Assembly: GCA_020026285.1 (NCBI GenBank)
Contig: JAHHQS010000125.1
Span: 1-11,753 of the forward strand
Direction: 5' to 3'
Length of the DNA: 11,753 nt
Source: Parabacteroides sp.
GTDB lineage: Bacteria; Bacteroidota; Bacteroidia; Bacteroidales; Tannerellaceae
Made by a program: the position numbers and the translations under genes. Below, piece by piece: positions 2,071-11,753 of this stretch. The notes under the pieces are model-generated. The model saw only the letters and a list, made by a program, of their open reading frames with translations. It was not told where the DNA came from and did not search any database. How positions within the stretch are numbered: position 1 is the first letter of the stretch; each line of letters starts with the position of its first letter.

Positions 2071-3873
2071 TCAGGACATATAAAGTGAAGACTGTTTGCT
2101 CCAAAACTCATAATACTTTCCTTTTCGTGCTACTAATTCTTCATGAGTTCCAGATTCCACTATTTCTCCATCATGAAAAAACAGTATTAAATCCGAATAC
2201 AGCACCGATCCCAGTCTATGCGTAATGAATACACTCGTCTTGCCATAAGTAAGTTCGTTAAAGCTCTTATATATCTCCGCTTCTTTAATCGGGTCTATTG
2301 CTGAAGTTGGCTCATCCAAAATAAAGATCTCATTTGATGAAAAAATAGCTCTTGCCAATGCAATTTTTTGCCATTCTCCTCCAGATAATTCCACCCCACC
2401 GAATTCTTTTGATAGCATCGTTGTTAAATTAATATTTTTATTAAATTTAGCTTTTTCAAGTGCTTCAATAATACCGACTTCATCGTCCTTTTTCTTTACA
2501 TTTGAAATTGAAACATTAAATCCAAGCGAATCCTTGTATTTGGAATAATCTTGAAATACTGTTGAGAAATTACTCCAAAATGATCTGTAATCAACAAGTT
2601 GCAGATGTTTTTTATTATACACAACGTTTCCATTCGATGGATTAAGCAACTTCATCAATAACTTAACAAAAGTCGTTTTACCGCTCCCATTTGCACCCAC
2701 AATAGCCACATGTTGCCCTTTTTTTATACTTACATTAATGTTTTTAAGTACATACTTCTCCGTTAGTGGATATCTATAATCAACACCATTAAAACGGATT
2801 AAAATGTTACCGTAATCTTCATCATTTTGGCAACCTGCGTTAAAACCAGATGATTGTAAATCCATAAATTCATAGAATTCACCCATGTCAAAACTTAATG
2901 CATATACCGATCCCAAATTTTTCGACAAATTTATAAATATATAAATCATATTTATAATAGTTGCAAAAACTGCGGCAAGACCACCTAATGTCATCTCTCC
3001 TATGATTACTTGATATGATACCATAACTATACAAACCATTAGAATGATACACCTAAATAGTTCCTCAAGCAGTAAAAGAACCGTTTTCTTTCGTTCGACA
3101 TTTCTTTTTTTCTTAAAAATCTCTGTTGACCTTTTTTCATATTTTTTTTGAAAAAAATCAAACGAATTATTAACAATAATCTCTTTGATTAGAGATTGAT
3201 CATATTTTGCAGTTTTGTAATATCCAACCTCATTATACGCATCCGTTAAGCTTCTTTCGTTTAATTTGGATATTTTATCTCCAATAATTTTACCAACAAT
3301 GACAGGAAGTATCGTCAGTAGTGACACTATACAAACCATTGGATGTATTATGTATAGCGAAACGAACAATCCGACCATTTGCACTATTAGCCGAAAAGAT
3401 TCCAATCCCAACTGATATAATTGTATATAGGTACCGTGATTAAAATTCCACGCTCTCGTTATTTTATTCTGCACATTCGGAACCTCATATAGCTCACAGT
3501 CTATTTGCGTTGCCTTTTTATTTACAGCGCCATCAAGGGTTCTCCATGAAGAAAAGTTAATGCTGTCCATAAACTTTGTTGAAAAGAAATAACAAAAATC
3601 GAGCACCACTTTCAACCCAATATAAATTAGCAAAAACAAAATCGCTAGTTTTATATCGCCAGAATAGGAAGTAGCAGTATCAATATATTTTTTCCACACC
3701 AAAGTGAATATGGGGGATACCGATGACATACCCAACAAGAACAAGGTGTATCCTAAAAAAACGACGAATTGATTCTTTATAACAAATCCCCAAAATTTAA
3801 TGCATAGCTTAATACTAGGTTTTAAGTTATTATCAGATAATTCCTTCTCAATCTTTGTCGTTGCATCAATCAT
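2071..3873 (-). CDS. ABC half-exporter (permease + ATPase), second subunit
   Basis: This 600-residue fused membrane and ATP-binding subunit of an ABC exporter starts at ATG 3873 behind AAGGGG. The open frame extends to 3912, but the extra codons lie inside the preceding gene and lack a binding site. With the chosen start the gene overlaps its neighbour by 8 bases, which implies coupled translation. Residues 30-320 carry about six hydrophobic segments. The nucleotide-binding domain has Walker A GANGSGKTT (393-401), signature LSGGE (496-500, Glu replacing the usual Gln), Walker B IFILDE with catalytic Glu521, and the switch His552. There is no N-terminal C39 peptidase domain, so this protein does not cleave a leader. 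It probably pairs with the preceding half-exporter to secrete the modified peptide, or serves self-immunity. It is the last gene of the operon; no clear terminator is visible downstream. Confidence 0.9.
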   Translation of the reverse strand: MIDATTKIEKELSDNNLKPSIKLCIKFWGFVIKNQFVVFLGYTLFLLGMSSVSPIFTLVWKKYIDTATSYSGDIKLAILFLLIYIGLKVVLDFCYFFSTKFMDSINFSSWRTLDGAVNKKATQIDCELYEVPNVQNKITRAWNFNHGTYIQLYQLGLESFRLIVQMVGLFVSLYIIHPMVCIVSLLTILPVIVGKIIGDKISKLNERSLTDAYNEVGYYKTAKYDQSLIKEIIVNNSFDFFQKKYEKRSTEIFKKKRNVERKKTVLLLLEELFRCIILMVCIVMVSYQVIIGEMTLGGLAAVFATIINMIYIFINLSKNLGSVYALSFDMGEFYEFMDLQSSGFNAGCQNDEDYGNILIRFNGVDYRYPLTEKYVLKNINVSIKKGQHVAIVGANGSGKTTFVKLLMKLLNPSNGNVVYNKKHLQLVDYRSFWSNFSTVFQDYSKYKDSLGFNVSISNVKKKDDEVGIIEALEKAKFNKNINLTTMLSKEFGGVELSGGEWQKIALARAIFSSNEIFILDEPTSAIDPIKEAEIYKSFNELTYGKTSVFITHRLGSVLYSDLILFFHDGEIVESGTHEELVARKGKYYEFWSKQSSLYMS

Positions 3874-5614
3874 TACTATTCCCCTTGTAATACAATGATT
3901 TTTGTTTATCAAACATTTCCTTAAAAAATCCGTTCTTTTCTACTAACTCTTCAAACGAGCCTTGTTCGACCACACCCCCATCTTTTAACACAATAATTTT
4001 ATCAACCTTTGTTGTTATTCCTAACCGATGAGTAATGAAAAATCTGACCTTATTTTTTGCAATATTATTAATCCTTGTATATACATCCACTTCTTTTATA
4101 GGATCCAACGACGCCGTTGGTTCATCGAAAAAAAATATACTCTTTTCGCCTGTCAACGCTCGCGATATTGATACGTTTTGCCATTGTCCTCCCGACAAAT
4201 CAACTGCATTACCAAATTCTTTTCCGAGAATTGTATTATATCCATCATGTAAGACTTCTGCTATTTTATCAATCTCAAAACATCTCATTACCGCCAAATT
4301 TTGAGATGTAATTATACCTTCATTCATCAAAACGTTTTCTTTTAAACTTAAACTAAATTTTGAATAATCCTGAAAACTAACGCCAAAGATATCACTCCTA
4401 TCCTCAGGCGATATTGCAGAAAGGTTCACTCCATTAATGAGAATAACACCTTGACTAGGCTGATAAAGACCAATCAGTAATTTCATTAACGTGCTTTTAC
4501 CAACCCCATTTTCTCCAACAATCGCATATGACTGGCCTAATTCAAACTTTAAATTTATATTCTTTAATACATAATCATCTTGATTTGGATACTTAAAATA
4601 TAGATTTTTAGTTTCAACCGTAATGCCAGGTTCCTTTTCTACTGTTTTAACGTTACCTATTTCATCTGTAATACTAACGACTTCATTATACGAACAAACA
4701 CTTGATTTGATATTTACATGCTGCGTAATGACATTTTTTAAACTCTCTAAAATTTTAATCGTTAATATTTGATTAGATATCGAAACGAATACGCCCAATG
4801 AAATCTGATTATTGATAAATGAGAATAACACAATCATCAAATTGACAAAAACAACAATGTATTCAGTTTTCAAAACCAACGCGCTCAAAAAACCATACTT
4901 AAATTTTACTTTTAAAACAGCCGTATCAATCTCATTTTGTGTTTTTTTCCAATCATCTATCAAGTAATCAGAGCAATTATTAATCCTTATATCTTTTGCA
5001 TATCCTCTATCATGAAGAATAGATGACTTGTATATCCCTCTCCTTCTATCTGTATTCAAAGATATAATTCGCTTGTATTGTCTATCTGCAATTCTATCAG
5101 AGAAATATCCTACAATTGGAGACAAAACCACTACAGATATCATTAATACAGGAGAAATACGAACTAAAATAACAATATAAGAAACAACACTAATCCCTGT
5201 TGTTAGCAATAAAAAAACATACGAGACTATCGATGAGAACAGATTGTTATCTATTACTTGTCTTATTTTATTGTATGTATCCTCGTACTCATATTGATTA
5301 TAAGGTATCTTTTTAATTAACGAATTAATATGCCTACTCCAACTTAATTCAAATGAGTGATTACATTCCTGTAACCAATAATTTAATACAATGCTGATCA
5401 TCGGCAACATATAGGAAAGAAGTAAAAACATCGCTGAACTAAATATACTGTTCAAATTACTGGGAGACTGCATAATTCCAGATACAGCATCAATAAAATT
5501 TGCTTGAGCTATTAGCGATAAAGGACCTGAAAATGCCAAAATCACAGATACCAACAAACGTATAATAAGTATACCTTTATTACTCATTATAGTTTTATAC
5601 AGATCTTTTTTCAA
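3866..5614 (-). CDS. ABC half-exporter (permease + ATPase), first subunit
   Basis: This 582-residue half-exporter has transmembrane segments between about residues 15 and 290. Its nucleotide-binding domain has Walker A GENGVGKST (367-375), signature LSGGQ (473-477), Walker B IFFFDE (Glu498) and the switch His529. All ATPase residues are present. I choose the TTG start at 5614 because GGGGGG lies six bases ahead of it; the first ATG, ten codons in, has no good site. It begins 11 bases after the protease-fusion gene, and its binding site abuts that stop codon. It overlaps the next ABC gene by 8 bases. The two proteins share architecture but are clearly diverged, as expected for a heterodimeric exporter. 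No C39 peptidase domain is present. The substrate, inferred from context, is the processed Cys-rich peptide. Confidence 0.9.
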   Translation of the reverse strand: MKKDLYKTIMSNKGILIIRLLVSVILAFSGPLSLIAQANFIDAVSGIMQSPSNLNSIFSSAMFLLLSYMLPMISIVLNYWLQECNHSFELSWSRHINSLIKKIPYNQYEYEDTYNKIRQVIDNNLFSSIVSYVFLLLTTGISVVSYIVILVRISPVLMISVVVLSPIVGYFSDRIADRQYKRIISLNTDRRRGIYKSSILHDRGYAKDIRINNCSDYLIDDWKKTQNEIDTAVLKVKFKYGFLSALVLKTEYIVVFVNLMIVLFSFINNQISLGVFVSISNQILTIKILESLKNVITQHVNIKSSVCSYNEVVSITDEIGNVKTVEKEPGITVETKNLYFKYPNQDDYVLKNINLKFELGQSYAIVGENGVGKSTLMKLLIGLYQPSQGVILINGVNLSAISPEDRSDIFGVSFQDYSKFSLSLKENVLMNEGIITSQNLAVMRCFEIDKIAEVLHDGYNTILGKEFGNAVDLSGGQWQNVSISRALTGEKSIFFFDEPTASLDPIKEVDVYTRINNIAKNKVRFFITHRLGITTKVDKIIVLKDGGVVEQGSFEELVEKNGFFKEMFDKQKSLYYKGNSND

Positions 5615-5625
5615 TCTTGTCCCCC

Positions 5626-7425
5626 CTAGCTAAGTTCATTAATTATGCTGTCAAATATCTCATCGATCTGATCTATCCTCAAAACCTTTCTCTTAGTCAA
5701 GGACGATATTTCACTAATACGATATGCCATGTCCTCTTCAGAACACAATGCCTCTTTTTCTTCTAACGGCGAAAATGTTGGTTGCATATTACGAGGCGAA
5801 AGTACAATACATGCTGTTTTTGCTCCGGTTAATGACTCAATATAGTTAAGACTTCGCAAAATATAATCATTTGAATCACACACATTGGTTACCAAAACCA
5901 TTGTATCAGGTTGTATAGCAGACAGCAAAGCATTCTGCATAAAAGGATACATACGCGAATTATAGAGTTTATCGCTCAACACATACGATTGCAGTCCAGT
6001 TATAATGACATCTTTTCCCATCCTTTCAATATCATATAGTTGACGGTTAACATATTGCAATACTTCTTTTTCGAAAAAATTCAAGTTTGATCCATAACCA
6101 GTAGGAAACACCTTGTCTATACCAAAAAGGTACCCTTGTGGTTCCGTTGCCCACTGACCAACAGCATACTGTTGGTCGATAAATTTTTTTCTCAGCTCCA
6201 ACTGTAAGGAAAATTTCCCCTGCTTCGAAGAAGTACCTATCACCGATACAATTGGCACACCTATCATTCTAAGTTTTCCGCTGCTATCACACGATATCTG
6301 CTCAATATTCATACTGTAACACTTTAGATTCTTTTTTTGAAACTGCTGCCTAATTATCTCTGTTATAGTATCAAAACTTATCATGTTCTTGCCATAAATC
6401 AAACAAAAGTCTATACAGTCTTTGGTATAATTGTGTTTCGTAATTTGATTTAATTCTGCTAAATGGCCAACAACCAATGTATCAAAAGAATCTCTATCTT
6501 CTATAATGTCTTCAAATTTTTGAATTTTGTATGCATTCGAATACTTTGCTCGATGCGAAAACGATAATGTAGAATTGTTTATATTCCCTTTAACATTAAC
6601 ATCATATACATGAACCAAGTCGCATTCAAGCATATCTGAATAGTTGGTAACAGAAATAATTTCTTTATTGTATGGAAAAACAGATATTCTTTTCCCCTTT
6701 AAACAAGGAATTTCATTAGAAGAATAATTGCATTTAGTTCTAACCTTTTTTAATGCCGTTTTTGCAATCATTATTCTAGCTTGATTACAATCCATTACCT
6801 CGCCTCGCTGAATCCAAGGAATAAGTACTGAACAAATATGTGCCGATGCGAAACTAGCCCCAGAATTGACAATATAGTCGCTCTGCGGAGACCAACACAA
6901 TTTTTGATTCATCCCTTTTCCATAAACATCAACAACTTTTGAGTCACAGAATATATATTCGCTATTTCTTTTACATTCAATATCCCAATCCACTCCAAGT
7001 ACAAACGAAAAAGCCGCTGGATAAGATATGGATCCATAGTTATTAAAAGATGATACAATTAAAGTGCCCTTATCAGTAATATCTTTACATATTTTCTCAA
7101 GTCTGTTTAAATCACTTACCGTCGAAATACCAAAACTCAAATTTAAAATATCGAAATGTTCACAATTAAGCACATACTCAAGTGCCGAGATTAACATATC
7201 CTCAGTTATTGTGTCCGTTGAATCAAAGGCTTTTATTACAGTGATATCAACATAATCATTTTCAGATATTATTCCACAAATTGCAGTTCCATGTCCGACA
7301 TTATCACTGTTGCCGGTCAAAACAAACGCGTTGTTATCATTGATCACCTTACATATTATATTTTTATCAGCAAGCTTAGGGTGAAGTAGATTCACGCCCG
7401 TATCAATAATTCCAATTTTAACCAT
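5626..7425 (-). CDS. Subtilisin-like S8 protease fused to a P-loop peptide-maturation domain (TIGR04066-like)
   Basis: The protein has 599 residues from ATG 7425, which sits seven bases after GGAGG; a TTG 18 bases upstream is open but overlaps that site. The N-terminal half (about 1-215) is a compact subtilase without signal or prodomain. It has Asp8 in IGIIDTGVN, His45 in GHGTAICG, an Asn in SSFNNYGS at the usual oxyanion position, and Ser191 in SGASFASA (family usual GTSMAxP). The triad is complete. It probably removes the precursor leader inside the cell. The second half (about 250-599) has VIGTSSKQGKF (397-405), a P-loop-like motif with Phe where Ser or Thr is usual, then TEPQGYLFG and PTGYGSN. 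From memory this pattern matches the clostridial 'peptide maturation system protein, TIGR04066 family', of unknown reaction. I know these as separate proteins, so the fusion is unusual. It follows the precursor genes directly. Confidence 0.85.
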   Translation of the reverse strand: MVKIGIIDTGVNLLHPKLADKNIICKVINDNNAFVLTGNSDNVGHGTAICGIISENDYVDITVIKAFDSTDTITEDMLISALEYVLNCEHFDILNLSFGISTVSDLNRLEKICKDITDKGTLIVSSFNNYGSISYPAAFSFVLGVDWDIECKRNSEYIFCDSKVVDVYGKGMNQKLCWSPQSDYIVNSGASFASAHICSVLIPWIQRGEVMDCNQARIMIAKTALKKVRTKCNYSSNEIPCLKGKRISVFPYNKEIISVTNYSDMLECDLVHVYDVNVKGNINNSTLSFSHRAKYSNAYKIQKFEDIIEDRDSFDTLVVGHLAELNQITKHNYTKDCIDFCLIYGKNMISFDTITEIIRQQFQKKNLKCYSMNIEQISCDSSGKLRMIGVPIVSVIGTSSKQGKFSLQLELRKKFIDQQYAVGQWATEPQGYLFGIDKVFPTGYGSNLNFFEKEVLQYVNRQLYDIERMGKDVIITGLQSYVLSDKLYNSRMYPFMQNALLSAIQPDTMVLVTNVCDSNDYILRSLNYIESLTGAKTACIVLSPRNMQPTFSPLEEKEALCSEEDMAYRISEISSLTKRKVLRIDQIDEIFDSIINELS

Positions 7426-7456
7426 TGAATTCCTCCAGCACAAAGAGCGTCCGTGA

Positions 7457-7473: not shown

Positions 7474-7617
7474 TTAACAGCCCATTGAATAGCAGCCGTT
7501 GCTATAGCAAACGCCACTCCAACAATCAGCCTCGTAGGTAGCCATTGGCGCAATACCTGCGCACAACAGTACTAAATTACACGATGATATGTTTTTCTTC
7601 ACAAGTTTTCTTTTCAA
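7474..7617 (-). CDS. Cys-rich RiPP precursor peptide 2 (47 aa)
   Basis: This peptide begins at TTG 7617, nine bases after GGGAGG, and ends at TAA 7474. It starts basic (MKRKLVKKN). Residues 18-39 are identical to precursor 1, including LCAGIAPMATYEAD, and the tail is DC-WSGV-C-YSNG-C-YSMG-C. The final four Cys (32, 37, 42, 47) are spaced CX4CX4CX4C, and each of the first three is followed by Trp or Tyr and then Ser. The likely leader is residues 1 to about 31 and the core about 32-47. The product presumably carries thioether or other radical SAM-made crosslinks, with the S8 protease removing the leader. It has an extra Cys13 not found in precursor 1. TTG is the only start giving the same length as precursor 1 and having a binding site. 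I do not recognise the peptide as a named bacteriocin; its activity is unknown. Confidence 0.85.
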   Translation of the reverse strand: MKRKLVKKNISSCNLVLLCAGIAPMATYEADCWSGVCYSNGCYSMGC

Positions 7618-7647
7618 AATCTGCTTTCCTCCCTTAAAATAATCGAA

Positions 7648-7791
7648 TTAACAGCCCTTGGAGTAACATGCCGCACTATAGCAAACGCCACTCCAACAAT
7701 CAGCTTCATAGGTAGCCATTGGCGCAATGCCCGCACATAATTGGACTTGCGATAATTCGCCTAAAACCTTTTTCCTAAGTTTGATTTTCAT
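7648..7791 (-). CDS. Cys-rich RiPP precursor peptide 1 (47 aa)
   Basis: This peptide starts at ATG 7791 and overlaps the last 17 bases of the ferredoxin-fusion gene in another frame; an AGGAGG site lies just upstream inside that gene. It begins MKIKLRKKVLGELS, a basic leader start, continues LCAGIAPMATYEAD, and ends DC-WSGV-C-YSAA-C-YSKG-C. The tail is three tandem five-residue units, Cys-(Trp/Tyr)-Ser-x-x, closed by a terminal Cys (32, 37, 42, 47). It is the same length as precursor 2 and identical at residues 18-39, but differs at most of residues 3-17 and at core residues 40, 41 and 45. Its place between a radical SAM/ferredoxin pair and a protease/exporter set marks it as the substrate. 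Sactipeptide- or ranthipeptide-type thioether bonds are the likeliest modification, but this is inferred. Confidence 0.88.
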   Translation of the reverse strand: MKIKLRKKVLGELSQVQLCAGIAPMATYEADCWSGVCYSAACYSKGC

Positions 7792-8239
7792 CAGAACCTC
7801 CTACATTACAATCAAATATATTTTTGTTGGCTTTCACCGGACACTCTAACAAACAATTCGAACAGTTATTACATTCATCGATTTTAACAGGTATAGGATA
7901 AGGATACTTATCTTGAACTACTTTTAATTCTCCGTGTGGACACAGTTGTACACAAGCTAAACACCCTATACACATATTGCTATTTACTATATCGTCAACA
8001 TTACGGTACCCATCAATTATTGCCTGTTCAATAATCTTGGCAATTCTTTCTTTAGTACTAAAATATTGAAACAGTAAGTATTCATCTGGAATTCCAACAT
8101 CGAATTCATTTTCTATCGAAACAACTAGTTGAACAAATTGCAATGAATCCATACTCGACAGTAATTCATTCTGAGTCGCATCATCCGGATCATAAATACC
8201 ATTCATTTCCAAAACGGCATCCAATTTATTTAATATCAT
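7775..8239 (-). CDS. Acyl-carrier-like domain fused to a 2[4Fe-4S] ferredoxin
   Basis: The protein has 154 residues from ATG 8239, which overlaps the radical SAM stop codon as ATGA; GGGAGG precedes it by seven bases. Residues 1 to about 78 form an acyl-carrier-like helical domain with the motif MDSLQFVQLV. Ser32 occupies the phosphopantetheine-attachment position. Residues 88-135 form a bacterial ferredoxin: CIGCLACVQLCP (Cys90, 93, 96, 100) and CNNCSNCLLECP (Cys123, 126, 129, 133), each able to hold one [4Fe-4S] cluster. The clostridial Cys-rich peptide systems include an 'acyl carrier-related protein' (TIGR04069, from memory); here such a domain is joined to an electron carrier. The simplest role is to dock on the maturase or precursor and deliver electrons for SAM cleavage. 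Whether Ser32 carries a pantetheine arm is unknown. Confidence 0.88.
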   Translation of the reverse strand: MILNKLDAVLEMNGIYDPDDATQNELLSSMDSLQFVQLVVSIENEFDVGIPDEYLLFQYFSTKERIAKIIEQAIIDGYRNVDDIVNSNMCIGCLACVQLCPHGELKVVQDKYPYPIPVKIDECNNCSNCLLECPVKANKNIFDCNVGGSDENQT

Positions 8240-9597
8240 ATAGACACCTCCCAAAACTTATTGCAAGAATTATAGCTTTCAATTTCTAGATAATCTAAAA
8301 CTCTTTGTTTAAACGATACACATTTATGTTTCATTATACCCTGTATTCTTGCAGCGCCACAAGAAGTCGATAAACAGAGAGGGAAACATGCACAATCGTA
8401 ACATTCCGTCAGTGGCGCATCAAATATCCATTTCTTTTCTTTTTTCGAATCGAATGTAATGTTTCCATCCGAATCAATATTTCCAACGCGATTATCTTCG
8501 AAACCTTCTAATTTGAAATCGCATTTCAGTATATCTCCATTTGCATCTATTGTATAGCCATGTCTAGTTCCAGCCCAACAATCATTATGTGCAAATAACA
8601 AGTTAGTCCAGGCCTTAAAGTCTAATTTATCACTATACTTTTTCATAATCTCAGACACATCTTTTTCATGAATTAGCTCTTTTTTTAATTGTTCAGCTTT
8701 CATGAAATCGCTATCTTTATAACTCCAATCAAATACGGGAATAAATGAGAAGCAAAATCTTCTATCATCTCCAAAATTTCTATAAAATAGATCAACAATT
8801 TCATCGGCTCTCTCAACCAGTTCCCGTGTGAAATTTATCCTTATTGTTATTGAAAACATCTGATATTTTATGTTTTCTTTTATTTGTTTCAAATTATGGA
8901 ATATTTGTTCAAATGATGATTCTCCGTTTTTAAGTACTCTTTGTTTAATATCAGGAAGACCATCTATCGATATTTGATACGTAACCACATTATACTTATA
9001 CAATTCCTTAAAGGTTTCCAAATCCAACAAATAGCCATTAGTAATAATCCCACATCCATATGTAAATTTGTATTTTTTCTTTAATTCGTTAAGTTTTTCA
9101 GAAAAATATTTTATACCTTTGAGTCCCATAAGAGGCTCGCCACCAAACCAACGAATCTTCACATTCTCATAATGATGCTGCTTTATTTTTTCCTCAATAA
9201 ATAGAATCAGAGCATCATATTGGTTGAAGTTCAAATAATATGTTTCTCTCTTCTGAAAGCAGTATACACAACTAAAATTACATTGATTGGTAGTCAGTAT
9301 AACGATATCAAGACGCTTGTTATTAGTCACTGCTGTTTCATAAATATCATTTATTGTATCATCAGAAGATCCATCTTGAGTAGTGATAATTCCACCTTCA
9401 ATCATCTTTTCAATATCACTCTGTTGCATCCTAGAGATCAAATCCATTGTTAATTCGCGTAAATCAGTCTGCGATGATGATTTGTTATTTATTTTGTAAA
9501 GGCTATTAGAAACTGCATTTGTTACCAAAAGATTGCCATACTTATCGTGAGTAGTAATATTAAACCTCGACAATCGATAATCGTTCAAATTAATCAT
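8236..9597 (-). CDS. Radical SAM/SPASM peptide maturase (CcpM-like)
   Basis: The protein has 453 residues from ATG 9597 behind GGAGGG. Residues 1-95 form an N-terminal region typical of peptide maturases. The radical SAM core follows, with CNFSCVYC (Cys106, 110, 113), which binds the SAM [4Fe-4S] cluster, and GGEPL (152-156), which contacts SAM. The C-terminal SPASM domain shows Cys340, Cys359, then CYDCACFPLC (399, 402, 404, 408), Cys413 and Cys426, enough for two auxiliary iron-sulfur clusters. Enzymes of this architecture make thioether (Cys to alpha, beta or gamma carbon) or carbon-carbon crosslinks in RiPPs. The substrates are probably the two Cys-rich peptides encoded 445 bases downstream. 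Length and neighbours fit the clostridial 'Cys-rich peptide radical SAM maturase' (CcpM, TIGR04068) group, recalled from memory. It is the first gene of the operon and overlaps the next by four bases. Confidence 0.9.
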   Translation of the reverse strand: MINLNDYRLSRFNITTHDKYGNLLVTNAVSNSLYKINNKSSSQTDLRELTMDLISRMQQSDIEKMIEGGIITTQDGSSDDTINDIYETAVTNNKRLDIVILTTNQCNFSCVYCFQKRETYYLNFNQYDALILFIEEKIKQHHYENVKIRWFGGEPLMGLKGIKYFSEKLNELKKKYKFTYGCGIITNGYLLDLETFKELYKYNVVTYQISIDGLPDIKQRVLKNGESSFEQIFHNLKQIKENIKYQMFSITIRINFTRELVERADEIVDLFYRNFGDDRRFCFSFIPVFDWSYKDSDFMKAEQLKKELIHEKDVSEIMKKYSDKLDFKAWTNLLFAHNDCWAGTRHGYTIDANGDILKCDFKLEGFEDNRVGNIDSDGNITFDSKKEKKWIFDAPLTECYDCACFPLCLSTSCGAARIQGIMKHKCVSFKQRVLDYLEIESYNSCNKFWEVSI

Positions 9598-9964: not shown

Positions 9965-10072
9965 TTAAAATCAGACACAATTCGATTAGTCACAGATAAC
10001 GTATTGATGATATAGTAGCTATTTTCTTATTAAAACGAATAATCACTCATTAGTTCACAGACATCTATCTTG

Positions 10073-10108
10073 GCCTACGTCAAGGGAAGTTCGCAAAAAG
10101 GGTTCCTG
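10073..10108. repeat. IS256-family terminal inverted repeat (right copy, inner end)
   Basis: It begins GCCTACGTCAAGGGAAG. It matches the reverse complement of 1941-1976 except at two positions (C/T at the sixth base, A/T at the sixteenth). It marks the right boundary of the bracketed 8.1-kb segment. Confidence 0.8.
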
Positions 10109-10118
10109 TAAAATGGGA

Positions 10119-11057
10119 TTAAGCTGCAATCTGCAGCGTTGCCTCAATGGATTCTTTGCTGAGGCATGCCCTCGAGACGGACCAGTCCTCCGCATACTCC
10201 ATCAGATAGGTGGTCACCAGACGGACATAAGATGCCTCATTGGGAGAGATCCCAACTACACTGGTGCGTCTTGGGATCTCACGATTCAATCGTACGATAA
10301 TGTCGGAAGACGAAATCTTCCGAGCATCCAGTTTCGGGAATTGATAGAAAGTCAGTGAGTCTTTCAGTCCGTTTTCTAAACACGAGATCGCTTCAGAAAA
10401 TCGTTTAACATAGGTATCTATCATTTCGTATGCACGCTTTTTGGCGAGACCTGCAGTATGGACCAGCCATAACAGCAGCGAAGGCTTTCTTCTCTCTTTG
10501 TGGCACATAGGCCAGAGTATTCCGCATAAATTAGACCTTGCAGCGTTGCTAGAAAGCCCCAAGAAAGGACTCACGAATGGCGGCAACTAGACCGGTATAA
10601 GCATCTGAAACGACCAGTTTAGTCGTAGTCAACCACACTTTTTCTGGCTCTGGAACAGAATGTGACACGCATCTCTGTACTCCTCTGCCATAGATCCCAT
10701 AGCAATAATATCCCTGTGGTCATTTTCGTCTACGCAACATATAACAAACACTGCCACACTGAAGATTCTTCTGTCAACATGGACTTTTTGTACAGTGCAT
10801 CTATCCATAGAACAGGATATAGCCGCTTTGTCTGAGCTTGGGTACCATGAGGTACATCGTTCCCATATGGGTATCCAGACATCGGGGACGGTATCCACTG
10901 CGGTAGCCGCTCGACTATCCGTACGCTCACTTTTCTCCACACCCATCTGCTGATTCACCTCAACCTCCATATGCTGCGTACAAATTCATTCCAGCATAGG
11001 ATCCATTTGAGTGATACATTGCAGTAGCAATCTGTAGTATTCCTCTTGTGATTTATT
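10119..11057 (-). pseudogene. IS256-family transposase, multiply broken
   Basis: Pieces in different frames add up to a mutator-type transposase: KSQEEYYRLLLQ and TQMDPMLE near 11050-10990, an in-frame stop, MEVEVNQQMGVEKSERTDSR (from 10970), a frameshift into SGYRPRCLDTHMGTMYLMVPKLRQSG, then a jump straight to YPVLWIDALYKK that skips roughly 60 residues. After that come VVSDAYTGLVAA, two stop codons around QRCKV, a further short deletion, and an open C-terminal part from 10586 to the stop at 10119 ending SIEATLQIAA. The first two catalytic Asp remain, but the last motif reads DIIVRLNREIPRRT, with Val where the left copy has Glu. The element cannot supply transposase. The original start codon near 11057 also appears lost. 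Confidence 0.85.
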
Positions 11058-11466: not shown

Positions 11467-11753
11467 TTACAATAAAGCTAAGAATTTTTCCATCAAATAG
11501 GAGCTTTCCTCAAAATTATGATACGCTTCTGCAAATTCTGCATATGTGCAACACATATCCGTTCTGTATAACCCCGTAATGTCATGATCACAATAATATA
11601 ACAAACTCTCTTCATCATCGTATCCGTAAAACATCAATTCATGATTGTGAGCCTTATTTTGGAATCCATAAGATTTTATAAAAAGCCTATCGACCATAAT
11701 GATTAACACTTTTCCCAAATCTATCTGTTGCTTCACGAAATTCAGAATATCTA
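11467..11753 (-). CDS. Partial gene, possibly BtrH-N-type cysteine-peptidase-like protein (C-terminal part)
   Basis: The frame is open to the window edge and stops at TAA 11467. A GTG at 11736 could be read as a start, but the codons before it (DILNFV) fit the same protein and no binding site is visible, so the gene most likely begins outside the window. The visible part has GKVLIIMVDRLFI, a hydrophobic strand, then HNHELMFYGYDDEE followed by YYCDHD and a helix (YAEFAEAYHNF). The order, a V-x-V-D strand, then HE/H-x-hydrophobic-GYDDE, then a second D, is what I recall from BtrH N-terminal-like and related papain-fold domains found in peptide and antibiotic clusters. Such proteins usually continue for another 100 or more residues; the stop here and the broken frames downstream suggest a C-terminal truncation. 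The family call is tentative. Confidence 0.4.
   Translation of the reverse strand, partial: DILNFVKQQIDLGKVLIIMVDRLFIKSYGFQNKAHNHELMFYGYDDEESLLYYCDHDITGLYRTDMCCTYAEFAEAYHNFEESSYLMEKFLALL

Follow-up and report, generated by a model that had tools for sequence, protein, structure and literature searches.

The small-peptide genes

The subject of this study is a pair of small adjacent genes in a stretch of 11,753 nucleotides from Parabacteroides sp. (GenBank assembly GCA_020026285.1, contig JAHHQS010000125.1), referred to in its full length as the window. They lie in a minus-strand operon with the order radical S-adenosylmethionine (SAM) enzyme, acyl carrier protein (ACP)–ferredoxin fusion, precursors 1 and 2, S8-TIGR04066-like fusion, ABC transporter and ABC transporter. 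The two precursor genes, each encoding 47 amino acids (aa), are as follows.

7648..7791, minus: precursor 1, K-type, 47 aa, ends CYSKGC; putative leader aa 1-18 (7791-7738), core aa 19-47 (7737-7651)
7474..7617, minus: precursor 2, M-type, TTG start, 47 aa, ends CYSMGC; putative leader aa 1-18 (7617-7564), core aa 19-47 (7563-7477)

Precursor 1 (7791-7648, minus) translates as MKIKLRKKVLGELSQVQLCAGIAPMATYEADCWSGVCYSAACYSKGC, and precursor 2 (7617-7474, minus, TTG start) as MKRKLVKKNISSCNLVLLCAGIAPMATYEADCWSGVCYSNGCYSMGC. The type is assigned by the residue preceding the last -GC or -C, and the leader/core boundary was placed from conservation and from a leader pattern common to other loci. An earlier note on this DNA had described two adjacent 47-residue peptides with Cys at positions 32, 37, 42 and 47, and the coordinates and translations of the open reading frames (ORFs) agree. 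The four positions stand, while Cys19 (present in both precursors) had been overlooked, as had the invariance of Glu29 and the existence of two peptide types. Precursor 2 has an extra Cys13, which is not conserved.

Both 47-residue ORFs are real genes, as indicated by the Shine-Dalgarno-like sequences preceding both starts (GTAGGAGG; GGGAGG), by their placement in the operon and by conservation. The pattern CX4CX4CX4C occurs twice in the six-frame translation of the window, whereas 200 order-2 Markov shuffles averaged 0.02 and none had two. The motif had been described as unfamiliar among characterised sactipeptides and ranthipeptides; no NCBIfam family was above cut-off for the precursors and no Pfam family matched at E<=0.1. 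The sole NCBIfam family match was elgicin_lanti, at 18-19 bits (cut-off 40).

Conservation and the two peptide types

A search with precursor 1 returned 18 proteins at E<=1, and a profile search returned 25 at E<=10, the same 18 and seven more. P0143, which diverges after Thr27, and P0145, which is partial and has no repeat, were left out of the alignment; P0012 was retained although its frame continues beyond the last Cys. With 23 database proteins and the two peptides of the window, the family alignment comprises 25 rows, among which 22 cores are distinct.

The Cys32-37 and Cys37-42 spacings are five in all 25 rows, and the Cys42-47 spacing is five in 22, four in two and seven in one. The residues directly after Cys32, Cys37 and Cys42 are Trp in 25 rows, Tyr in 25, and Tyr in 24 with Ile in one, so that the regular spacing with an aromatic after each Cys, as first noted, holds across the family. 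Cys19 starts the conserved block in every row (25/25), Glu29 is invariant (25/25) and always three before Cys32, and residue 31 is Asp in 23 rows and Gln in two. The earlier description of Ser as a fixed part of the repeat unit fared less well. The second residue after Cys is Ser in 24 rows and Thr in one in unit 1, Ser in 24 and Ala in one in unit 2, and Ser in 15, Ala in six, Thr in two, Leu in one and His in one in unit 3. Since Ser is not fixed in the units, it is unlikely to be an obligate crosslink partner.

The two genes of the window and the two of L001, a related locus from an uncultured Eubacteriales metagenome-assembled genome, were compared by codon. Pairwise among these four copies, the 29 codons of the core show 9-14 synonymous and 2-3 non-synonymous differences. 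The 16 codons before the core show the opposite, with 2-6 synonymous and 9-12 non-synonymous differences. The core is therefore under protein-level selection and nearly frozen, and the leader drifts. A frozen core with a drifting leader is the reverse of what is expected for a fast-evolving bacteriocin, and would suit a conserved signal or a metal-binding product better.

The position of the serines raises the possibility of a lanthipeptide, in which Ser34, Ser39 and Ser44 would be dehydrated and joined to Cys37, Cys42 and Cys47 in S-x-x-C rings. Both window peptides have the required S-x-x-C spacing, and the elgicin_lanti match points in the same direction. However, the operon proteins include no dehydratase or cyclase, and Ser/Thr is absent from unit 3 in 8/25 rows and from unit 2 in 1/25. 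In the relative genome G001 no LanC-like protein was over cut-off (best 12 bits, cut-off 23.2). This result and the rows with no Ser/Thr in unit 3 disfavour lanthionine, and we consider a lanthipeptide highly improbable.

Eight of the 25 rows are K-type and 14 are M-type, and P0141, P0142 and P0144 belong to neither type. Both the window and L001 have a K-type gene followed by an M-type gene. The M-type ORFs P0007, P0011, P0014, P0017 and P0018 start within an upstream gene in another frame, and codon-level residue sets for that gene allow Lys and rule out Met at the diagnostic position in 5/5. With the window and L001 read directly and five ORFs by residue sets, the order K-type then M-type fits 7/7 cases examined. 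The residue-set test was used in place of a full-motif test of the upstream gene, which fitted in only 1/5 because the other four begin too far inside that gene or deviate from the motif. The number of repeat units may vary, as the upstream gene of P0007 seems from its residue sets to be without Cys42.

Operon proteins and a possible maturation pathway

The remaining genes of the operon encode the following proteins.

8236..9597, minus: radical SAM/SPASM maturase, 453 aa (Radical_SAM 71.8 bits, cut-off 29.5)
7775..8254, minus: acyl carrier domain fused to a 2x[4Fe-4S] ferredoxin, 159 aa (PP-binding 23.9 bits, cut-off 20.8; Fer4_7 35.9, cut-off 27)
5626..7443, minus: S8 subtilase fused to a TIGR04066-like domain, 605 aa (Peptidase_S8 50.1 bits, cut-off 21.8)
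3866..5614, minus: ABC transporter, 582 aa (ABC_tran 90.1 bits)
2071..3912, minus: ABC transporter, 613 aa (ABC_tran 98.5 bits)

This domain content agrees with the earlier view that the peptides are precursors of the ribosomally synthesized and post-translationally modified peptide (RiPP) type adjoining a radical SAM maturase. The maturase has the CxxxCxxC motif and the C-terminal Cys set of SPASM radical SAM enzymes. C106, C110, C113, C340, C359, C399, C402, C408, C413 and C426 are invariant in 26 aligned sequences and would ligate the Fe-S clusters. Among the best 25 of 53 NCBIfam matches, it stays under the curated cut-off in every family: TIGR04463 149 bits (cut-off 525), CefB NF038107 142 (600), Clo7bot 130 (600), PapB NF047865 97.8 (340), SCIFF TIGR03974 66 (425) and CcpM TIGR04068 52.4 (500). 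Membership of the maturase or precursors in the CefB, Clo7bot, SCIFF, PapB, CcpM or lachnocin families was rejected, as the curated cut-offs were not reached.

The kind of reaction is suggested by CteB, which ranks first among the solved relatives of the maturase both by sequence/profile and by fold, and which argues against another radical SAM chemistry. Such a chemistry might be one Cys-Glu link to Glu29, or reaction on Trp33, Tyr38 or Tyr43, with the other Cys free or in disulfides. Glu29 is a candidate acceptor in view of its invariance and its place before Cys32, the aromatics are nearly as constant, and the fold relatives of the maturase include the non-thioether enzyme TigE. PapB joins Cys to Asp/Glu, according to PMC9413430. 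Against a link of this kind, no Cys-X3-Asp/Glu occurs in the window peptides, and one is seen among the 25 rows, in P0002 (CYSKD). We regard these chemistries as unlikely, though they deserve real weight. A three-residue cyclophane at W-S-G would require a side chain at Gly35, and such a ring at unit 1 is disfavoured by this residue.

The ACP-ferredoxin gene shares 17 nt with the start of precursor 1. Its product shares a D-S-[LI] motif with the ACPs of five other loci, and an ACP match is present, with TIGR04069 not among the best 25 of 101 NCBIfam matches. The S8 part of the next protein scores under the cut-off for QhpE (102.9 bits, cut-off 165). Its C-terminal part is under the cut-off for TIGR04066 (64.9 bits, cut-off 200) yet clearly homologous (E 6.4e-18). 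Read by eye, the Asp/His/Ser motifs are IIDTG, GHGT and GASFASAH, and no obvious signal peptide is seen. This protein is a probable leader protease with a second domain without assigned role. Neither ABC transporter has a C39 peptidase among its Pfam matches at E<=0.1. PADLOC gave superfamily-level matches only, namely viperin for the radical SAM enzyme, subtilase and IetS for the S8 protein, and BrxP for the ACP-ferredoxin.

From the computed genes, domains, conservation, peptide-type order and relatedness to CteB and to S8-TIGR04066 systems, we infer a course of leader binding, crosslinking, electron supply, cleavage and export. Two precursors would be made, each with a Lys-rich leader (~aa 1-18) bound by the N-terminal part, similar to a RiPP recognition element, of the CteB-like SPASM enzyme. 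The enzyme would then act on the core of 29 residues, where the most likely change is the formation of thioether crosslinks by several of its five Cys. The fusion of ACP and ferredoxin would work with the enzyme, probably as electron donor via the ferredoxin part. The S8 protease would remove the leader inside the cell, and the two ABC half-transporters would export the mature pair. The operon thus probably makes a two-peptide radical SAM RiPP, thioether-crosslinked, with its leader cut in the cell before export.

The peptides might instead keep unmodified Cys that bind metal or form disulfides, the radical SAM enzyme acting on some other target. Five conserved, regularly spaced Cys could bind metal, and the crosslink is itself deduced. 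However, the genes form a tight operon with the radical SAM enzyme, and a similar leader occurs beside other radical SAM/S8-TIGR04066 loci. Nor did the peptides match solved disulfide peptides; the three Protein Data Bank matches at E<=10 are to an unrelated enzyme (E 1.6-1.9). Unmodified peptides therefore seem improbable to us.

The crosslink in every repeat that the earlier note suggested is a hypothesis for the preferred thioether-crosslinked pair, and a new ring topology is possible. A bolder and distinctly tentative idea is that one CteB-like enzyme turns the nearly invariant five-Cys core of two peptides into a ladder of regularly spaced Cys-aromatic crosslinks. This ladder would have a ring topology not yet described, and a dedicated ACP-ferredoxin chimera would serve it by linking a carrier with the supply of electrons.

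Inverted copies of a Mutator/IS256-type transposase sequence, 77-86% matching, flank the cluster at 1217-1979 and 10070-10819. The transposase ORF lies at 1148-1930 on the plus strand (Transposase_mut 243 bits), the right copy is broken up, and a third end-like repeat is at 546-590. As the cluster sits between inverted copies, it may have moved as a unit. Outside it, left of the transposase copy, a DUF5028 protein is encoded at 590-1024, minus (93.7 bits). The right-edge ORF at 11467-11753, minus, matches BtrH_N weakly (16.2 bits, cut-off 29.7), is also weakly similar to BtrH-like proteins encoded in related loci (tblastn E 0.033), and is perhaps the remnant of a BtrH-like gene.

Distribution, related loci and known systems

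A pattern scan for the radical SAM enzyme in genome contigs of 84,980 species, whose reach is close relatives, found one locus, L001, with an enzyme 73% identical. At E<=1e-55 the enzyme was found in 1/391 genomes sampled from the class, its own, and at 1e-50 in 2/295 genomes of the family; the precursor profile found 1/398 genomes of the phylum, again its own. Great rarity is argued against by the precursor clusters P0004, P0139 and P0140, which represent 58, 64 and 65 contigs. Other relatives of the enzyme, at 60% and 47%, are P0031-P0033 and P0037-P0041. P0043 is a 557-aa metagenome protein for which DUF1611 (PF07755) and Radical_SAM domains are both listed; it is 80% identical to the window enzyme over 44% of it, and would be the product of either gene fusion or misassembly. 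Only distant radical SAM enzymes (best ~30% identical) were found in viral contigs, phages and plasmids, and the S8 matches there cover <=40% of the query among the matches listed (8 of 29 records). A degenerate core pattern had no exact match in viral contigs, the only set scanned.

TIGR04066 proteins are more widespread, with matches at E<=1e-8 in 18/391 genomes of the class, above cut-off in 15; G001 carries four. Peptides beside long S8-TIGR04066 frames share a Lys-rich start and a hydrophobic V-x-L-[YCG]-type motif, followed by Cys cores that differ widely, such as MKKLRKPTSKRTENLNKVRVLGTMVASEPGSKYQGCQNPRGCGCTAC in L122 and MKKKLLKPKKSSSKITLYKEKGIWCC in L125. This leader pattern, when scanned for, gave 15 matches in eight S8-TIGR04066 loci (139 kb), 14 of them these peptides and at least one per locus, and 10 matches in 79 viral-contig loci (1,260 kb) taken as control. 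The scan is a description more than a test, since the pattern was devised after seeing the peptides and the control DNA is of a different kind. Leaders of the same kind occur on three tandem precursors of ~26 aa in L125 (5150-5525), ending -IWCC, -VHCC and -VVCC, and on two tandem 24-aa precursors in L124 (8287-8671), ending -NNCWC. The stand-alone TIGR04066 short loci (L092-L118) hold one plausible Cys-rich precursor, in L106.

The ACP stands alone in L087, L122, L124 and L125, and in L088 it is the C-terminal portion of a protein of 267 aa; among seven aligned ACPs, the ferredoxin fusion is found only in the window and L001. BtrH-like proteins (~330 aa) occur in the S8-TIGR04066 loci L087, L088, L123 and L128, alongside ACPs in L087 and L088, and none was seen in L001. 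The combination of BtrH and ACP recalls acyl transfer from ACP in butirosin synthesis. L123 (3808-10446) has BtrH, ABC and S8-TIGR04066 proteins and a leader peptide with two Cys, with no match to the window radical SAM enzyme at E<=1e-4 in 16.8 kb. Between the S8-TIGR04066 and radical SAM genes of L125 lies a gene (7771-9171) whose 466-aa product belongs to the class C beta-lactamase/serine hydrolase superfamily (52 bits, cut-off 415).

In the open-access literature no paper was found on "Cys-every-fifth" or "lachnocin". For the operon architecture only SacP23 and a P. polymyxa Kp10 relative were found, most subscription journals lying outside the coverage, so that other papers on it may exist. 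Section 4 of PMC9062424, which maps radical SAM RiPP clusters, names none with a Cys-aromatic repeat.

Several known systems share single features with the operon. The CteB/SCIFF ranthipeptide maturase (5WGG, 5WHY) is the best solved relative by profile and fold, but has only 17-19% identity, a SCIFF score far from its cut-off and a different precursor. CefB "Cys-every-fifth" (NF038107) combines a related radical SAM enzyme with a Cys-repeat precursor; however, the nearest CefB-like locus found, L133 (573.7 bits), has as its precursor frame a long Gly/Ala/Asn repeat that contains Cys but hardly any aromatics. PapB differs in that the window peptides are without its Cys-X3-Asp/Glu and the maturase is under the NF047865 cut-off. 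Thuricin CD, as described in PMC12093266, is likewise a two-component peptide product made with radical SAM enzymes, but with two such enzymes, whereas the window has one for two very similar peptides.

The operon also resembles the CLI_3235/CcpM and lachnocin systems. The earlier note did not recognise this type, although the set of S8, TIGR04066, ACP and radical SAM proteins is of a known kind. According to PMC10731318, the SacP23 cluster encodes an S8 protease and an ABC transporter together with TIGR04068, TIGR04066 and TIGR04069 proteins, and the linkages of SacP23 "remain to be elucidated". As in the window, one operon there combines S8, TIGR04066, ACP-related, radical SAM and ABC proteins with a short Cys-rich, short-leader precursor. 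The window differs in having S8 and TIGR04066-like parts in one protein, an ACP fused to ferredoxin, two precursors, and radical SAM and TIGR04066 scores far under the family cut-offs. Lachnocin (NF038169, NF038170) shares the fused S8-TIGR04066-type frame adjoining radical SAM, ABC and short precursor genes, and L126 (peptide 77.4 bits) and L127 (by similarity) look like lachnocin loci. However, lachnocin precursors have a CHCGCHG-type core, and the window peptides gave no match to NF038169 at E<=1.

The precursor family is thus a real, conserved, two-peptide family for which no characterisation was found, on a divergent branch within a type of system already known, and the operon is a divergent relative of the CLI_3235/CcpM and lachnocin systems. 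With it, the S8/TIGR04066/ACP radical SAM systems gain an unnamed precursor family and an ACP-ferredoxin fusion, and its regular Cys-aromatic units, near-invariant core and two natural types offer a clean test substrate for the products of these enzymes and the role of the ACP.
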